From Candidatus Schekmanbacteria bacterium RIFCSPLOWO2_02_FULL_38_14 (lineage in GTDB: Bacteria; Schekmanbacteria; GWA2-38-11), in assembly GCA_001790855.1 (NCBI GenBank), contig MGDH01000011.1:1-64000 (forward strand): DNA of 64,000 nt. Reading direction: 5' to 3'. The position numbers and the translations under genes were made by a program. Shown piece by piece: positions 1 through 7,597 of this stretch. Numbering within the stretch: position 1 is the first letter of the stretch; every line of letters begins with the position of its first letter. The notes beneath the pieces were generated by a model. It did no database searches and was not told the DNA's origin. It saw nothing but the letters and a program-made list of their open reading frames with translations.

Positions 1-1720
1 GTTTAAACCCGGTATATTCATTTGAATTCCATTTAAACCTGCTTTGTTTGCTCAGTTTTCCTCCATACTCAAGCTCTATCAGGGCAATTTTATCTGGCAC
101 TGCTGAAGCAGGACCATGGATTTCAGTCTCTCCATTAGTATCAACATCCTCAAGCTTATAGTAATATCTCTTTCCGTTAACTACATCTGTGTCTGCAAAG
201 CTGTAAAGTTCACCTCCTAAGTTTCCACTTGCTGATTTATAGTGAATCTTTTCATCTCCACCATTTTTATCTTCGCTTCTGTAAATATTGAACCCGTAAT
301 TATTAATCTCTGTCTCTGTCTTCCATTTAAGAGTAACTTTCCCATCCGAAGGAATTGCCATAAAATAAAGAAGCTCAATTCTTGTCTCTGCAGTAGTATT
401 CTTCAATCCCTTAACCACATAAAAAGGAGTGGTGAAAGTATGGTTTGAAACAATATCAACCTTGTTATCACTATTTATATCCTGAAGAGCTAAATAATTT
501 GGAGTGTTGGAAAAAATAAGTGAAAAGTCAGTTACCCATGCTGTTGTAAAGGGGTCATTATTAGTAGGGGGATTAAGAGGATTGTTATATACTGTAATTC
601 TTTTACTATTATAGTCCATTGTTATAGCTATATCTATATCTCCATCCCCGTCAAGGGCTGCAATTTTTAGTGATTGCTGTCCCCCACCTATAGATTCCGA
701 TGATAGACTATATCCTACAGCGTTTGATGAAACCCAAGTAGCTGTAAAGGCAATAGTTGAGCCTGGATTTCTATATATCCTGACAACCGCACTGTTCATA
801 AGCGTACTAGCTGCCATTCCGACAGCTATATCCTTTGAGCCATCTTTGTCTAAATCAGCTAAGGCAACTGGAAATACATTAACAGAGAGGTTAGCTACAG
901 GATTGCTATCCCACACGCTTGGAGAGTCAAAAGCAGAAGCAAAGCCTGGATTTTTAAAAATATGTACTTCTTGAACAGGTCCCGCTGTTGCAGCCCCTGC
1001 TCCAGTTACAATATCAGGTGTATTATCACTATCAATCCTACCTGCCCATACACCAACTATGTCAGCACCAGTTTTAGAGTAGATTATTGTAGCTGAGGGC
1101 CATGGCGATGTGCTAAAAACATTGGTTTCTGGATTTCTAACTATTTGCAAATTTTTACTTGCTCCACCTATTATGATATCAGGGAATTTATTAGTAGTGC
1201 TGTCAAGGTCTGCCATGAATAAAGCATTCACACCCGTATTCGTCGAAAGTATTAAACTTGACGCCCAAACAGTTGTTGTAAGAAAAGCTACAGATGGACC
1301 AGGGTTTTTCCATGCATAAACAGTTGAATTTGCTGCATTAGAATTCCCTGTGACGATATCAATAGAGCCGTCATTATCAAGGTCAGCTAATGCCACAGCA
1401 CTTAGGGTTATAGCCATAGCTCCTACACTTCTACTTGCCCATAAAACGCTAAATGCGGTAGTAGAGCCTGGATTCTTCCATATACGAATATTCTGAAGAG
1501 AAGAATTTGCTAATGCAACAATGTCTCTATTACCATCGCTATCAAAATCTCCAATAGCAATTCCCTTTCCAGTTTGGTCAGGGCTACCAAAACTTGTTGC
1601 TGGAGTTTCAAAGCTTATACTATAAGTTCTCTTTGTAAAAACCACAAGAAACAAGAAAAAGATTATTGATATTATAAAAAGAAGATTAAGTCCTTTATTT
1701 ATTATTATTTTATGCTTCAT
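1..1720 (-). CDS. FG-GAP/VCBS repeat surface protein (C-terminus cut by window edge)
   Basis: The frame is open from an ATG at 1720 to the window edge, so the C-terminus is missing. It begins with a short basic stretch and one hydrophobic segment (about residues 11-27), fitting an export signal or membrane anchor. Seven repeats follow, each with a D-x-D-x-D-G or related calcium-loop motif then D-I-(V/A/I), such as GDFDSDGNRDIV and ADLDNDGSIDIV; seven FG-GAP units normally form one seven-bladed beta-propeller. A C-terminal Fn3-like module of the 'EINNYGFNIYRSE' type follows. AAGGAAAA lies upstream of the ATG. The role is probably extracellular binding or adhesion. It is downstream of, and on the same strand as, the putative RiPP genes, but 25 bp beyond the kinase stop and with no proven link. 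Confidence 0.85.
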   Translation of the reverse strand, partial: MKHKIIINKGLNLLFIISIIFFLFLVVFTKRTYSISFETPATSFGSPDQTGKGIAIGDFDSDGNRDIVALANSSLQNIRIWKNPGSTTAFSVLWASRSVGAMAITLSAVALADLDNDGSIDIVTGNSNAANSTVYAWKNPGPSVAFLTTTVWASSLILSTNTGVNALFMADLDSTTNKFPDIIIGGASKNLQIVRNPETNVFSTSPWPSATIIYSKTGADIVGVWAGRIDSDNTPDIVTGAGAATAGPVQEVHIFKNPGFASAFDSPSVWDSNPVANLSVNVFPVALADLDKDGSKDIAVGMAASTLMNSAVVRIYRNPGSTIAFTATWVSSNAVGYSLSSESIGGGQQSLKIAALDGDGDIDIAITMDYNSKRITVYNNPLNPPTNNDPFTTAWVTDFSLIFSNTPNYLALQDINSDNKVDIVSNHTFTTPFYVVKGLKNTTAETRIELLYFMAIPSDGKVTLKWKTETEINNYGFNIYRSEDKNGGDEKIHYKSASGNLGGELYSFADTDVVNGKRYYYKLEDVDTNGETEIHGPASAVPDKIALIELEYGGKLSKQSRFKWNSNEYTGFK

Positions 1721-1745
1721 GTCCGTTTTCCTTATATATAGCATT

Positions 1746-2864
1746 TTAATTTCTAAATAAACTGTAAACAAGCTCTGCCATCTCATCCAGATTCCCCTGC
1801 TTTAATTTATAGCACTCGGTTTCAGAGATTATCTCTATCAATTTAAATAAAAGCAAAGATGGTTTATTCTCAAAATCTTGGAGTAAATGACTCTGGGGAT
1901 TCATATTTCTTAAATTTTCTAAAAGTAAGCCACAAGCCTCTGATTTTGTAACGGGGCTTAAAAAAGCAGGACCATTAAAATCAGGTGGGCCATCAGGTAT
2001 TTTCCCCATAAAGAGAATGAGGTTTTTAAATCTTTTAGAAAAAAGTTGAAATTCATTAATCAACCCTTTATCTCTTTTAATAGAGAGGGTGAACACAGGA
2101 TGCTCTTTGAGCAACGCAGTTGAGATAATTCTTACATCTTTAAGTTTATTTAAACCTGATACAAACTCTTTATCAGGCTCTTTTAATATGACCTCTACTA
2201 AGTTCCTCCTGTAATTTTTTTGTTCCCCTGCTCTTAATGGATTACCCAAAAAAATTACATACTGAGGAAAACAGGATTTACCTATATGGTCATAGATATC
2301 TGCAACATCAATGAAGCTTTTTTCAAAAGAACCCTTATTATTTGTCCTGATTCCAAGAGCTCTTGGGAATGGGTCAATCATTCCTGTAACTCTATTTAAC
2401 CCTACAAATTCTTCTGCTATAAAATTAAATCCTTTTTCAACCAATTTTGAAGCTAATGAGGTCTTGCCATAAGAAGAAGGAGCAATAATCATAATTCCCT
2501 TTTCATTAAAGGATACTGCGCACCCATGGAATATATAATGGCTTTTCACTTTATTCACTATTTTTTCAATTATAGCCATAAAAGCATTCTCAGCTATAAG
2601 CTCTTCATCCATTAGCCTGTATTTTTCTTCCCCTATTGCGAGAAAAGGGGTGTCTGCTTGGTATTTACTTGTGATTACAGAAATACAAAGGTCTGTCTTT
2701 TCCTCTAATGGAATTCTAAAGCGCCTGTAAATCTGGCTGAATCTATCAATTAGCTCCATAGAGTCAGTGGTGATTTTGAATTTAGTATCAAAAAAACTAT
2801 ATTTTTCCTCAAAAGAAGCTTCGTTTTTATAAGGTATAGTTTCTTTAATTGGTTCTTGCAACAT
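1746..2864 (-). CDS. HprK-related kinase, likely RiPP-associated
   Basis: A 372-residue protein resembling the C-terminal P-loop domain of HPr kinase/phosphorylase. H113-G114 precedes a Walker A-like loop, APSSYGKTS (residues 128-136), whose first glycine is alanine. The acidic pair after it is EE (about 151-152) rather than the DD of true HprK. The N-terminal 100 residues are not HPr-kinase-like, so this is one of the HprK-related kinases seen beside PqqD-type peptide-modification genes, not carbon-catabolite HprK. Relatives phosphorylate a serine of lasso peptides (PadeK type). It lies 96 nt after the radical SAM gene. Inferred role: phosphorylation of the peptide encoded at 4362-4589. The family is fairly sure; the substrate is a guess. 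Confidence 0.75.
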   Translation of the reverse strand: MLQEPIKETIPYKNEASFEEKYSFFDTKFKITTDSMELIDRFSQIYRRFRIPLEEKTDLCISVITSKYQADTPFLAIGEEKYRLMDEELIAENAFMAIIEKIVNKVKSHYIFHGCAVSFNEKGIMIIAPSSYGKTSLASKLVEKGFNFIAEEFVGLNRVTGMIDPFPRALGIRTNNKGSFEKSFIDVADIYDHIGKSCFPQYVIFLGNPLRAGEQKNYRRNLVEVILKEPDKEFVSGLNKLKDVRIISTALLKEHPVFTLSIKRDKGLINEFQLFSKRFKNLILFMGKIPDGPPDFNGPAFLSPVTKSEACGLLLENLRNMNPQSHLLQDFENKPSLLLFKLIEIISETECYKLKQGNLDEMAELVYSLFRN

Positions 2865-2927
2865 ATTTTAAAATTCCCTTTATCTCTTTCTTTAATGTCT
2901 CTAAAAAACTTTTAAATTGCTATAAGC

Positions 2928-2950
2928 TACCTGCCTACCGCAGGCAGGTA
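2928..2950. repeat. Short palindrome (ACCTGCCT family)
   Basis: A perfect 9-bp stem, TACCTGCCT with AGGCAGGTA, around a 5-nt loop, lies between the radical SAM and kinase genes. A related stem is at 15231-15252. No T-run follows on the minus strand, so it does not look like an intrinsic terminator. It could stabilise the upstream message or simply be a dispersed repeat. Confidence 0.7.
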
Positions 2951-2960
2951 AGCCAATTCT

Positions 2961-4328
2961 CTAACACTCTTGCCATGCAGGGAGGGCTTTCTCTCCGTAT
3001 TTTTTAGCAGAAATGTTAAAGATTATTTCCTTGTAGAGCTCTCTTCGCAAATCACAAAAATCATCCGTTGCCCATATAGTTCCTTTGGACATCAAACTTA
3101 TGCCCGGGCATCCTGCTTGGCATAGATTCTTCCAGGAACAATTTTTACATTTCTCAATTTTCTCTCTTCTTGAAAGAGATATTTCTATAATTGATTTAAA
3201 TCTTGTGGAATTTCGCACCTCAGATAGAGAATCTTTTCTAATGTTCCCTAAGTAGAATTTATCCTCCATTAAAAGAGCGCAGGGATAGATATCGCCATTT
3301 GAAGTTATTGCAGCTGTCCTGCCAATTGGGCACCATGTTCTATTGTTTCTCATTCTTAAAACTAACCCGTTCAAGCCACTTGTTATCTTTATATTCTCAT
3401 TCCTCTGAGAAAAAAGAAATCTATAAAGCCTTATATAATCATCAGCTGAAATATCTCCATTTACTTTGTTCCAATTTCGCAGGGCAGAGCCTACCCTATG
3501 CAATGGAAGAAAACGGAGCACAGGAATCTCAAGCTCCTTTACAAGCTTAATGAGCTTGGGAATATCTTCTATGTTATGGTTTGTTATGGTTGTGCATATT
3601 ATTAGCTTATCTTTTAAGCCATATCGCTTTAAAAGAGAAATCCCCTTCATAGTTGCATTAAAAGAGCCATTGCCTCTAATTTTATCGTTAACCATAGCCT
3701 CAGATCCATCGAGACTAACTTGCACAGAAATCCGATTCTCTGAAAGGAAATTAGCTATTTTCTCGTTAATCAATGTCCCATTTGTCAATAGCATTACTTC
3801 TAAACTATGGGATGCATATTTTAAAATTGATAAGATATCTTTCCGAAGCAAAGGCTCTCCACCGCTTATAGTTAATTTTTTACCCCCCAATTCTCTAAAT
3901 TCATCAATTAATTTAATAATCTCTTTCTTTTTAAGATTACCTGTGGTTTTTTTGTTATCAAAGGAATAGCAATGTTTGCATTTAAGATTGCAGCCATTTG
4001 TAATATGAAGAAAGAGACTTTTTATATCAGTAGCCTGTTCATAAAGCTCCTCACCCTTAGCTGAAAAGCTCCTCTTTAGCTTGTTTAGATAATGTATTAT
4101 ATCATTACATATATTTTCAGAGCTTATCCTGTATTTTGATGCAATTATTCTTTCGATATCCTTTAAAGAGTTAGTTCCATTGCAATGCTTTATAATCTCA
4201 AATCCTCTATCATTGACCACTGCCCAGAGTGGATTTTTTCGATGGAGCAAAATATGGAATTCCTCCTTTTTCTCATGATAAAAATTCCCACTAATCCTGG
4301 GAACATATGTTGGAAGAAATTCTTTCAT
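2961..4328 (-). CDS. PqqD-like domain + radical SAM/SPASM peptide maturase
   Basis: Residues 1-90 look like a PqqD-type RiPP recognition element, the winged-helix fold that binds leader peptides. The radical SAM core starts near residue 108 with CNLKCKHC (C113, C117, C120, CX3CX2C), which holds the SAM-binding cluster, followed by an SGGEP motif. The C-terminal SPASM region carries WCPIG, GDIYPC and a cysteine-rich stretch KCKNCSWKNLCQAGC plus a last Cys near 'DDFCDLR', enough ligands for two auxiliary clusters. Such enzymes make thioether, C-C or C-O crosslinks, or epimerise or decarboxylate peptides. The start is 33 nt after the small peptide gene, which supports a maturase-substrate pair. 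The actual chemistry cannot be read from sequence. Confidence 0.88.
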   Translation of the reverse strand: MKEFLPTYVPRISGNFYHEKKEEFHILLHRKNPLWAVVNDRGFEIIKHCNGTNSLKDIERIIASKYRISSENICNDIIHYLNKLKRSFSAKGEELYEQATDIKSLFLHITNGCNLKCKHCYSFDNKKTTGNLKKKEIIKLIDEFRELGGKKLTISGGEPLLRKDILSILKYASHSLEVMLLTNGTLINEKIANFLSENRISVQVSLDGSEAMVNDKIRGNGSFNATMKGISLLKRYGLKDKLIICTTITNHNIEDIPKLIKLVKELEIPVLRFLPLHRVGSALRNWNKVNGDISADDYIRLYRFLFSQRNENIKITSGLNGLVLRMRNNRTWCPIGRTAAITSNGDIYPCALLMEDKFYLGNIRKDSLSEVRNSTRFKSIIEISLSRREKIEKCKNCSWKNLCQAGCPGISLMSKGTIWATDDFCDLRRELYKEIIFNISAKKYGEKALPAWQEC

Positions 4329-4361
4329 AAATTGTTTTTGTTAAATTTTCTGGAATCTATT

Positions 4362-4589
4362 TCAAAATCCTGCATTGTCCTGTTGCATGTTATAAAGGAC
4401 ACCGCAAGAGGAATCATAACTATTACATGCCTGAACCGTTCCAAGCTCTTCTAAGATTTCATCACTTGAATATGTTATGACTTCAGGAGGAATGTATGTA
4501 GGGATTTCTTTATTCTCTGACTCATTCATGCTTCCCTTCCAGCCCTTTCCTTCTACATGATTGCTTAGTTTTTTCTTTCCATCATCCAT
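4362..4589 (-). CDS. Putative RiPP precursor peptide (75 aa)
   Basis: This small ORF has AGGAG eight nt before its ATG. A second in-frame ATG at 4529, behind GGAAGG, would give a more typical 55-residue precursor. The middle reads like a leader: TYIPPEVITYSSDEILEELG, with the Y-x-x-P and E-(I/L)-L-E-x-L-G pattern common in uncharacterised precursors beside PqqD-type maturases. After LGTVQA comes a likely core of about 21 residues starting at C55, with Cys at 55 and 62 (spacing CX6C), several Ser, two Tyr, and ending NAGF. It is followed at once by the maturase and then the kinase. The precursor assignment is inference from leader motif, size and context; the cleavage site is unknown. Confidence 0.72.
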   Translation of the reverse strand: MDDGKKKLSNHVEGKGWKGSMNESENKEIPTYIPPEVITYSSDEILEELGTVQACNSYDSSCGVLYNMQQDNAGF

Positions 4590-4640
4590 TTTTCCAACTC
4601 CTGTTTTATTTTTTTATAAACCATTTTACATAATTTATAA

Positions 4641-4669
4641 ATAATATTCAATAAAATATATATTGTCAA
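4641..4669 (-). promoter_or_regulatory. Sigma-70-type promoter for the RiPP locus
   Basis: On the minus strand TTGACA (4669-4664), a 17-nt spacer and TATTAT (4646-4641) are nearly ideal for the housekeeping sigma factor. The expected start site near 4634 gives a leader of about 45 nt before the precursor ATG. It sits in a very AT-rich 112-nt gap after the TPR gene, so the RiPP genes can be transcribed independently. Confidence 0.65.
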
Positions 4670-4701
4670 TTAAATATTTTGATGTATTTTTAAAATTCTA
4701 C

Positions 4702-7041
4702 TTAATCCTCTTTCACCTGTTTTTTGCCATATTTTAAATATAAACTCATTTCATCTTTTGCCTCCTTTTCCAATCCCTTTTTCATATATGCCCTTGATAG
4801 GTTATTATGGGCATTAGCATAAGATGGTGCTATCATAATTGCCTTCTTTAAAACCCTTATGGCATTATCATGCTTTCCAATTGAAGAATATGCCTCCCCT
4901 AAATTATTATAAGCATTTGGATAATATGGGTCTAACCCAATTGCTTTCTTATAGAACATTATTGCTAAGTCTGTTTGACCTTTTCTATAATATGTTGTTC
5001 CCAAATTATTATATGCCTTTGTATAATCAGGCTTTTTCTGGATAGCTTCTTTAAATAATCTAATAGCTTCATCGTATTTGCCTAAGGCATGGAAAGCAAT
5101 GCCAAGATTATTATAGGGTGTTGTATAGGTCGGGTCTATCTTGATTGCTTTTTTATATAGTTCTATAGCTTCATTGACTTTACCCTTGCTTGCATAAAGT
5201 CTTGCCAAATTATTATAAGCCTTCGCATAATAAGGATCTACTTCAATTGCTTTTTTATAAAGGATAATTGCTTTACCAGATAACTCTTTTGCATCATAAG
5301 CCATTCCCATATTATTATAGGGCTGAGCATAGACCGGCGCAGACTGGATAGTTCTACCAAACATCTCAATTGCATTATCTAATAAACCTACTTCATAGTA
5401 AGTCATTCCAAGCATATTATGAATCTCTGCTGGATTAGCAACTATTTTAATAGCATCTTTATAGATTTTCAATGCCTCATCAATCTGATTTTTTCTAAAA
5501 TAGGAGTTAATTAAATTATTAATCGCATCAGTATAATCTGGCGCCATCTTCACTGCTATCTTAAAAAACTTTAAGGCTTTTTCGGTTTTTCCCTTTCTAA
5601 TATAAGCTGCTCCAAGATTATTATAACTTTGAGGAAAGTTTGGCTCAATAGAAATTGACTTTTTGTAAAGCTCAATAGCCTCATCATTTTTATTCCTGCC
5701 TAAATATACAACCCCCAAGTTGTGATAGGGTCGGGCTTTATCAGGAGATTTCTTCATAGCATCACTCCAAAGCAGGGCTTCATCATTATAAACCTCGTTT
5801 CTTTTTATTGTCCCTGCTGAGAGAAAAATCAATATCAGTAGAATTGAACAAAAAAGCAAAAAGGAATGTTTACCAGAACCAAACTCCATAACCTTAATCA
5901 ATATCCCTGCTACAAAAAAGGTAATGCCTATAAGAGGAAGATAAAGCCAGCGTTCACACATCAAATCCTGCAAGCGAATAAGAAGATGTGGAGAAATTGT
6001 TATGAGAAACCAAACTATGCCAAATGATATAAGCTTAGAGTCTCTAAACAACTTTTTTGCTATGAAGATAAGCAAAAGAATGAAAAAGAGAGAAAGAATA
6101 AATTTACTCTGAAGCAATGATGCAATTAAAGGAAAATACGGGTCGAAATTTAAATTAATTGGAAACAGAAAATGTTTCAAATAGTAGAAGGCTATAGTAA
6201 CTTCTGTTAAAATATGTGGATAAAATTCCCTCTGAGCAGAATCAGGGCTTTTAAGGGTTATGGCAAAACTTAAACTCATAAGTACAATTAGGAATGACGC
6301 AACAATTAAGGGAAAATAATACTGGGCAAATCTTTTTTTGATATCCTGTAAGTTCCCTCTTGCTATAAAAAAATAATCATAAAAAAATACCATGGCCGGA
6401 AGTGTAATTCCTATCTGCTTGCTCCAGATTGATAAAAGATAAAAGATAAGGCAGAGTGGTGAATAAATTATATAGTTTTTACCTTCCTCATTACCCTTAA
6501 TAAAAAGAAAAAGAGCAAGGACATAGAAGAAGGCGCTTAATATTGAAGAGCGGCTTGAGAGATAGGTTACAGATTCAGTTGTAAGGGGATGGGTTAAATA
6601 AAACAATGAAGCAATTAAGGGTATAAGGTAACTCAATAATATGGTTTTATGATATAAGGAATTTCTTATGCTTATAGATATAATCAAATACACAAGGAAG
6701 GAGGTGAAAATATGAAGAACTATATTAACTAAATGATATCCAAAAAGCTTTAAACCCCCAAACTCATAATTTAGAGCAAAGGAAAGCATAAGGATTGGCC
6801 TATTGCTATTAAATGAGAAATCTTTTAAGAAGTTCTTTAACCCTTTAATATGATAATTTAACTCAATCGTATCTTTATCATCGTATATAAAAGGAACATT
6901 AAAGGAGTTTTTATAAACTATTATTCCAATTAGAAGGATGATTAAGAAAGCAATTGGATGGAATTTTCCTGACATTTTAAAATTCTTAATCAAAGCTATT
7001 GTCTTGCCTCCTTCTTTCTTTGGCAATTGCCAGTTTCTCAT
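4702..7041 (-). CDS. TMTC-like GT-C glycosyltransferase candidate with ten TPRs
   Basis: The N-terminal half has about 10-11 hydrophobic segments. Its first outside loop carries NVPFIYDDKDTIELN, followed by a RPILMLSFALNYEFGG block and YHLVNIVLH, the pattern of TMTC-type proteins (GT-C fold, DD catalytic motif); animal members are O-mannosyltransferases. From about residue 440 there are ten consecutive 34-residue TPRs (Y-N-N-L-G...A-I...Y-K-K-A-I...P). The likely role is lipid-linked sugar transfer to exported proteins, though many bacterial homologues are untested. The ATG at 7041 has a poor ribosome site; an AGGAGG at about 7011-7006 points to TTG 6993 (start of a hydrophobic N-terminus) or ATG 6975 as the real start. 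Confidence 0.78.
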   Translation of the reverse strand: MRNWQLPKKEGGKTIALIKNFKMSGKFHPIAFLIILLIGIIVYKNSFNVPFIYDDKDTIELNYHIKGLKNFLKDFSFNSNRPILMLSFALNYEFGGLKLFGYHLVNIVLHIFTSFLVYLIISISIRNSLYHKTILLSYLIPLIASLFYLTHPLTTESVTYLSSRSSILSAFFYVLALFLFIKGNEEGKNYIIYSPLCLIFYLLSIWSKQIGITLPAMVFFYDYFFIARGNLQDIKKRFAQYYFPLIVASFLIVLMSLSFAITLKSPDSAQREFYPHILTEVTIAFYYLKHFLFPINLNFDPYFPLIASLLQSKFILSLFFILLLIFIAKKLFRDSKLISFGIVWFLITISPHLLIRLQDLMCERWLYLPLIGITFFVAGILIKVMEFGSGKHSFLLFCSILLILIFLSAGTIKRNEVYNDEALLWSDAMKKSPDKARPYHNLGVVYLGRNKNDEAIELYKKSISIEPNFPQSYNNLGAAYIRKGKTEKALKFFKIAVKMAPDYTDAINNLINSYFRKNQIDEALKIYKDAIKIVANPAEIHNMLGMTYYEVGLLDNAIEMFGRTIQSAPVYAQPYNNMGMAYDAKELSGKAIILYKKAIEVDPYYAKAYNNLARLYASKGKVNEAIELYKKAIKIDPTYTTPYNNLGIAFHALGKYDEAIRLFKEAIQKKPDYTKAYNNLGTTYYRKGQTDLAIMFYKKAIGLDPYYPNAYNNLGEAYSSIGKHDNAIRVLKKAIMIAPSYANAHNNLSRAYMKKGLEKEAKDEMSLYLKYGKKQVKED

Positions 7042-7102
7042 CCCTGAGTTCTTTGATATCTTCAGGGTTGCCTCTATAATAATCTACAGGACGGTTCTCT
7101 TT

Positions 7103-7597
7103 TCAGACTTGCAATTTTTCTCTGAGAACTCGTAGGTTCAAGACATCTTCCCTGTTGTATTCCAGCAAAGTTGTCAGAGATTTTTTATCGCCGTAAAGTT
7201 TATAATTCTGCCAGAGTAATACAGCCATCTTCCCGTCTACATTTTTAAGTTCTCTGTTTATTCTCAAAACCCTTTCAACATTTTTCAACCCGCCAAAGAG
7301 ATTCCTTTTCCAGCAATCAAACATCAAGTCCTTATGTTTAAAAAGTTTTGAAAGGTTGATACCCAATTTTGTCTTGATAAAAGGAAGGTCAAAGCGTGAA
7401 CCATTATAGGTATAAACTACCTTTACATCCTCCATTGTCTCAGACAATTTTAAAGAAGATATTTCATTTCCAACTAATTGAATAAACCTGTTTTCCCTGC
7501 CATTTTCCAGATATAATCCAATGACAGTTAAATTTTCAGAACAGGGATTTAAACCTGTTGTCTCAATATCGAGGTAAGAGCAGTAGTCTGTATTCAT
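7103..7597 (-). CDS. RNase H-like 3'-5' exonuclease (DEDDy type)
   Basis: The 164-residue protein opens with YLDIETTGLNP (Exo I, D-x-E), has YNGSRFDLPF (Exo II) and ends with EYNREDVLNL, the YX3D of a DEDDy exonuclease. It belongs to the YprB/RNase_H_2 group of single-domain nucleases. The annotated TGA at 7103 is followed in the same frame by 38 further codons reading like protein, to a TAA at 6986, whose last codons contain the ribosome site of the next gene. The gene may therefore have been shortened by a nonsense change, or the TGA may be an assembly error; see findings. Confidence 0.8.
   Translation of the reverse strand: MNTDYCSYLDIETTGLNPCSENLTVIGLYLENGRENRFIQLVGNEISSLKLSETMEDVKVVYTYNGSRFDLPFIKTKLGINLSKLFKHKDLMFDCWKRNLFGGLKNVERVLRINRELKNVDGKMAVLLWQNYKLYGDKKSLTTLLEYNREDVLNLRVLREKLQV

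Follow-up and report, generated by a model that had tools for sequence, protein, structure and literature searches.

In the window (the whole 64,000-nucleotide stretch analyzed here, which is contig C11 of its genome from the first base), three minus-strand genes in a row encode a short precursor peptide, a radical SAM/SPASM maturase and an HprK-like P-loop protein. On balance we favor the view that they belong to an unnamed RiPP-type maturation operon, the product of which would be used beyond the cytoplasm, alongside secreted proteins with a common C-terminal domain (given the name HGP domain here). A sequence-only reading of the locus had described three reading frames on one strand, in this place and order, and had called the locus RiPP-type; we confirm the first point and find support for the second, in that the genes beside the conserved precursor encode an HprK-like protein and a radical SAM/SPASM enzyme with a PqqD domain.

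Organization of the locus

The features of the locus are as follows.

4641..4669, minus strand: promoter-like site TTGACA-17-TATTAT, 52 nt upstream of the precursor's first ATG
4362..4589, minus strand: precursor peptide gene, 75 aa (family kept beside the same enzymes in other genomes)
4440..4496, minus strand: conserved leader part of the precursor, YIPPEVITYSSDEILEELG (alignment; Y, P and G invariant, T and P nearly so)
4365..4439, minus strand: presumed core of the precursor, TVQACNSYDSSCGVLYNMQQDNAGF (alignment; cleavage site inferred)
2961..4328, minus strand: radical SAM/SPASM maturase, 455 aa (Pfam; invariant cluster cysteines; 11 cassette homologues)
4071-4256, minus strand: PqqD-like recognition domain at the maturase N-terminus (Pfam)
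1746..2864, minus strand: HprK-like P-loop protein, 372 aa (Pfam, NCBIfam and PDB sequence matches around the P-loop; kept as next gene in homologues)
1..1720, minus strand: 5' part of the gene for a secreted FG-GAP repeat protein, running off the contig start
92..397, minus strand: C-terminal HGP domain of the FG-GAP protein (alignment and genome search, E 4.5e-37)

The gaps along the run are 33 bp and 96 bp, and the kinase gene is followed after 23 bp by the FG-GAP gene, the product of which has a signal-peptide-like N terminus and then FG-GAP repeats (Pfam 2.8e-22); a similar FG-GAP gene lies inside the cassette of genome G002 (L091:5986-7704). Because the window starts at the first base of C11, the FG-GAP gene and anything downstream of it are cut by the assembly. 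The promoter-like site has 11 of 12 consensus matches and is among the two best in positions 1-7200 (a consensus scan, which is not evidence of function), and the terminator and promoter scan found little besides this single site.

A near-palindrome, CCTGCCTACCGCAGGCAGG, occurs between the maturase and kinase genes (window 2930-2948; one occurrence in the window, none expected by chance), and that the genome has further copies is suggested by a stretch in L103 that codes for PACRQAG. Membrane TPR proteins encoded at window 4702-7041 and at L106:8282-10078 have a similar N-terminal part (YKNSFNVPFIYDD and YGNSFKVPFHYDD, respectively) and adjoin two different HprK-type cassettes of this one genome, which may be chance.

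Homologous cassettes and their peptidases

Searching with the maturase, the kinase and the precursor in turn, we found homologous cassettes in 14 other genomes (one by fragments): G002, with the same gene order; L010/G387, from the Thermodesulfobacteriota, and seven more in that phylum; G139; and a phylum represented by four genomes (G037, G182 and G316, with G386 by fragments). Weak HprK matches in G003, G050, G216 and G312 (70-90 bits) belong to other cassettes and were left out of this count. The homologous cassettes share the precursor family, the HprK-like gene, usually a standalone PqqD gene, a gingipain-like C25 peptidase and an S24/S26 peptidase; where contigs allow it to be read, the order is mostly PqqD, precursor, radical SAM, HprK-like, C25 with propeptide domain, S24/S26. 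The last two genes adjoin the kinase gene in most cassettes and, because they accompany the homologous cassettes, we assign the peptidases to the system. The earlier description of the locus as compact and with no peptidase visible is therefore revised: homologous operons run on into C25 and S24/S26 genes, and a C25 gene is present in this genome 245 bp from the start of contig C42. The cassettes showed no dedicated ABC exporter and no immunity gene.

The window's genome has a second C25 gene, on C43, and its best-matching standalone PqqD protein is an orphan on C19. At its start C42 carries the tail of a domain like the one into which the FG-GAP gene appears to run at the C11 end (the two halves match weakly), and on C43 and in G001, too, a C25 gene comes after an HGP-domain gene. 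For these two reasons we think that C42 continues C11, and the C25 gene on C42 probably follows the truncated FG-GAP gene; the contig end of C11 has no exact overlap with C42 or C43, so that we put the join forward as a proposal only. No S24/S26 gene was found beside the C25 gene on C42 that is presumed to belong to the window's operon.

The precursor family and its variable cores

Two starts are available to the precursor, giving 75 aa (4589) or 55 aa (4529); the longer has AGGAG 8 nt upstream, and the shorter matches the lengths of the homologues. A precursor profile recovers counterparts adjoining the same enzymes in other genomes (E 1e-9 to 1e-29), indicating that the reading frame is not a chance one. 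The sequence-only reading had staked its interpretation on conservation of the small reading frame in homologous loci, and it is conserved there, beside the same enzymes. The motif YxxPxVITYxxxEIxxxLGP[AS] is common to 16 aligned precursors, and the precursors score above threshold with no NCBIfam family. A short encoded precursor with a conserved leader adjoining a modifying enzyme is one criterion for a RiPP, and this arrangement is what the locus has. From these comparisons the precursor is very probably the substrate of the system.

The cores, in contrast with this common motif, vary. Besides TVQACNSYDSSCGVLYNMQQDNAGF in the window, Cys-containing cores include PAQACSTTPCTVSPSGSGF (G002), PAQTCTTSPTPQ (L010), PAQTCSPSPCPTYQ (G640), PAQACAPTPCPVGNV (G681), PAHACSPFDPGCGVLG (G720), PAHTCTSTPTV (G572) and PAQACTSPCPAP (G139), and those of the four-genome phylum read PS[LI]SCTGFGGSxxC. 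Cys-free cores are PAQTMTSG (G661), PAQTYNSFMEDELG (G458) and PAHTVTSGGPRGVEFD (G491). The Ser/Tyr-rich CX6C core that had been emphasized for the window is not a feature of the family: of its Cys residues the first alone recurs in homologues, and just where a radical SAM gene is present.

The maturase and the core cysteine

The maturase matches the Pfam Radical_SAM (1.9e-28) and SPASM (1.1e-13) domains, and its PqqD domain matches over residues 25-86 (1.3e-4, above the Pfam cut-off in one search). A PqqD-type recognition domain is a further RiPP criterion; it is fused in the maturase here and is also found standalone in homologous cassettes. All ten cluster cysteines of the maturase (C113/117/120 and C333/350/394/397/403/407/425) are kept in 11 homologues, and the protein has the seven-Cys SPASM motif used as a criterion for sactipeptide and ranthipeptide enzymes. 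Its score lies below every NCBIfam cut-off shown (the best is StsB, 173.5 versus 625 bits), and the earlier description of the locus as uncharacterized is supported, with no named family that matches it. In a sequence search of the PDB, a strong match to 5wgg, which we take to be the thioether-forming enzyme CteB, covers both the PqqD domain and the radical SAM/SPASM part.

A radical SAM gene and a core Cys after GPxx[AST] are both present in 11 cassettes and both absent from three (G661, G458 and G491; Fisher 0.0027). A genome-wide search found no match to the radical SAM profile at 1e-30 in G661 or G458, and only weaker matches, of other types, in G491. G572 provided a test case: its contig is broken inside the kinase gene, the maturase was found on another contig, and the Cys core beside it was read only after the maturase had been located. 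On the tree of the HprK-like kinases the pattern is explained by two changes, and we therefore count the link as at least two joint events rather than 14 independent ones. A core Cys tied to the enzyme, a criterion for the thioether class, is seen here, with at least two joint changes only. Because gene and Cys are present or absent together, Cys-directed chemistry by the radical SAM enzyme is indicated, and from the gene content and core alignments we consider it probable. Some cores hold a single Cys, which makes a thioether-type bond the most likely product and argues against a disulfide.

The HprK-like protein

The kinase matches HprK around the P-loop only (Hpr_kinase_C 6.8e-7, below the curated cut-off). 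His113, which precedes the P-loop, and the P-loop GK are invariant in 13 homologues, and position 151, which we assume to align with a catalytic Asp of HprK, is Asp in 12 of 13 kinases and Glu in the window protein. An AlphaFold model made from a two-row alignment was too poor (score 36). The gene is present in cassettes both with and without the radical SAM gene, and we take it that the protein would carry out a step common to all variants. It may act on the peptide, a suggestion that we make with some reserve.

Precursors in trans and the HGP domain

No precursor adjoins the cassette in G037, G182 or G316, and we therefore searched for precursors in trans. The profile search found, in the four-genome phylum, one cassette per genome and 2-13 precursor genes elsewhere, with near-identical cores (one, G182:C66, reads SYTGFGGSLKC and is missing the first Cys). 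The genes next to these precursors encode secreted proteins of the beta-helix, C25 or papain type; most of the precursors are beside beta-helix proteins, and several directly precede C25 genes. The secreted proteins near them have in common a domain some 100 aa long at the C-terminus, with the ending ..YYYYLVDIDTSGKWTAHGP.., and this HGP domain is the one carried by the FG-GAP protein of the window. Among the 26 in-trans precursors with enough flanking sequence, 18 lie at most 181 bp 3' of a same-strand HGP match and nearly all the others sit just 5' of an HGP gene, in genomes of the four-genome phylum that have only 7-22 HGP domains each.

HGP genes also occur inside four cassettes, those of G002, G139 and G720 among them. 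The domain is wider than the cassette, being present in G001 and G003, in which no cassette was detected, and G640 and G681 have 25-31 copies with one precursor read in each. An HGP profile had no match among PDB sequences, and an AlphaFold model of the domain alone was too poor (mean pLDDT 49). From the gene neighborhoods we tentatively link the system to HGP-domain proteins, a connection that we hold to be plausible and a little short of probable. Neither the in-trans precursors nor this connection to secreted proteins is visible within the window by itself.

HGP proteins of G002 and of the window's genome (G000) end in a basic tail. At L217:1432-16331 (G002:C3), seven consecutive secreted proteins each end in an HGP domain followed by such a tail (for example, RKKK), so that the domain looks like a C-terminal signal.

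Comparison with known systems

SynChlorMet cassettes (TIGR04248-TIGR04251) likewise combine PqqD-like, HprK-like and radical SAM/SPASM proteins with a small peptide; they differ in having two radical SAM enzymes and no C25, and the window proteins miss their profiles (ScmE 137 versus 400 bits; no ScmC match for the kinase). To our knowledge, the SynChlorMet cassette as described has neither C25 nor S24/S26 partners. Membership is largely refuted, as judged from these profile scores. CteB/SCIFF-type and StsB-type thioether maturases (of ranthi- and sactipeptides) also pair PqqD and radical SAM/SPASM domains that act on a Cys-containing core, whereas family search shows no relation for the precursor here, which is not rich in Cys and is accompanied by HprK-like and C25 partners. 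The HPr-rel-A system (TIGR04352/TIGR04353) joins an HprK-related kinase to a PqqD family protein, and the orphan PqqD on C19, at 34.3, comes just under its cut-off of 35; however, the kinase scores 33.9 against the 200-bit cut-off of TIGR04352, and the defining proteins of that system come without radical SAM or C25, and we rejected this assignment as well. Type IX secretion, with its C25 sortase PorU, resembles the present system in combining C25 with many secreted proteins that have a common C-terminal domain, and the basic tail at the end of HGP proteins of G000 and G002 is a further point of likeness; we know of no radical SAM-modified peptide in it.

Lasso clusters with an HprK-type kinase (paeninodin, PadeK) have a similar YxxP leader style, a PqqD-type protein and an HprK homologue, and some lasso clusters carry an S24-like peptidase. 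The gene lists of the complete cassettes, judged by reading, hold no cyclase (Asn synthetase-like) or B2 protease, and we rejected a lasso peptide. HprK homologues phosphorylate lasso precursors, and the lasso kinases modify the terminal Ser of the core; cores of the present family, unlike those, do not end in Ser (PMC8498205). A literature search, with most subscription journals outside it, returned no description of this gene combination.

Other HprK-type cassettes were seen as well. At L104:2518-6988 (G000:C36) the window's own genome has a genuine SynChlorMet cassette, with ScmC, ScmD, ScmE and ScmF all above cut-off, an S24/S26-like gene and a small precursor-looking reading frame, MKYEKPELKSLNLKNPEPKSPNDEKIETAGGDVCTEGGNAGTCNIGYDDGHLTGG. 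Two more PqqD, radical SAM and HprK-like cassettes of other types are found at L105:4028-6983 (G000:C1) and L106:3994-6903 (G000:C29), one with a small protein that is maybe lasso B2-like and one with an S24/S26-like gene. Finally, at L119:398-2283 (G216:C34; also with a PqqD gene) and L121:4249-5579 (G050:C12), HprK-like genes stand next to short proteins that begin with a sequence like RDFIKKTISGIVLLPYIAPIIE or RDLFKHLGIGAAAFLLAYHRPSIRSF and have a tail rich in Gly/Arg or Gly/Met; these may be a further class of substrate for HprK-type cassettes.

Proposed mechanism and alternatives

In the scheme that we favor, PqqD-type domains (fused or standalone) would bind the precursor leader; the radical SAM enzyme, when present, would modify the Cys after GPxx[AST], most likely forming a thioether-type bond; the HprK-like protein would phosphorylate either the peptide or a partner; and at the cell envelope the C25 and S24/S26 peptidases would cut the product and set it free. 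This product would probably act beyond the cytoplasm with HGP-domain proteins, namely the FG-GAP protein of the operon and the neighbors of the in-trans precursors.

A diffusible, antimicrobial-like natural product, crosslinked and phosphorylated as the sequence-only reading had envisaged and with no tie to secreted proteins, seems rather unlikely to us. The enzyme set does resemble known RiPP clusters, and the phosphorylation of lasso precursors by HprK homologues fits (PMC8498205), but up to 13 precursors per genome with near-identical cores in the four-genome phylum are unlike diversified antibiotics, the in-trans precursors adjoin secreted-protein genes, and the cassettes show neither exporter nor immunity gene of the dedicated kind. 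Alternatively, the peptide may stay unmodified and serve the C25 peptidase and other secreted proteins as regulator, propeptide or inhibitor, with the radical SAM and kinase-like enzymes acting on something else; C25 genes do adjoin most cassettes, and several in-trans precursors stand directly before one. We regard this as improbable, given that PqqD domains together with a YxxP leader are characteristic of leader-guided modification, that the core Cys covaries with the radical SAM gene, and that most in-trans precursors adjoin beta-helix proteins rather than C25. Most improbable is a divergent SynChlorMet-like cassette with the same enzyme types and a peptide product that is not specified: ScmE/ScmF and ScmD profiles do match at sub-threshold scores, yet the window proteins fall far below the cut-offs, while on C36 of this genome a cassette clears all four.

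Within the favored reading of a maturation operon tied to secreted proteins, one cassette might mature many peptides, each encoded next to an HGP protein, with a sortase-like C25 joining the peptide to that protein or using it for the protein's anchoring or activation. We consider this extension unlikely; if true, the peptide would be a RiPP serving as a protein attachment or sorting element.

Implications

The analysis adds an unnamed precursor family and, with it, a comparative handle: the radical SAM gene varies with the core Cys, and the HprK-like gene is constant. This pattern of gene content separates the roles of the enzymes, and what HprK-like proteins do in peptide cassettes becomes testable. 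The scattering of precursors beside secreted proteins, with one cassette serving all of them, suggests that modified peptides may have uses beyond diffusible antibiotics.
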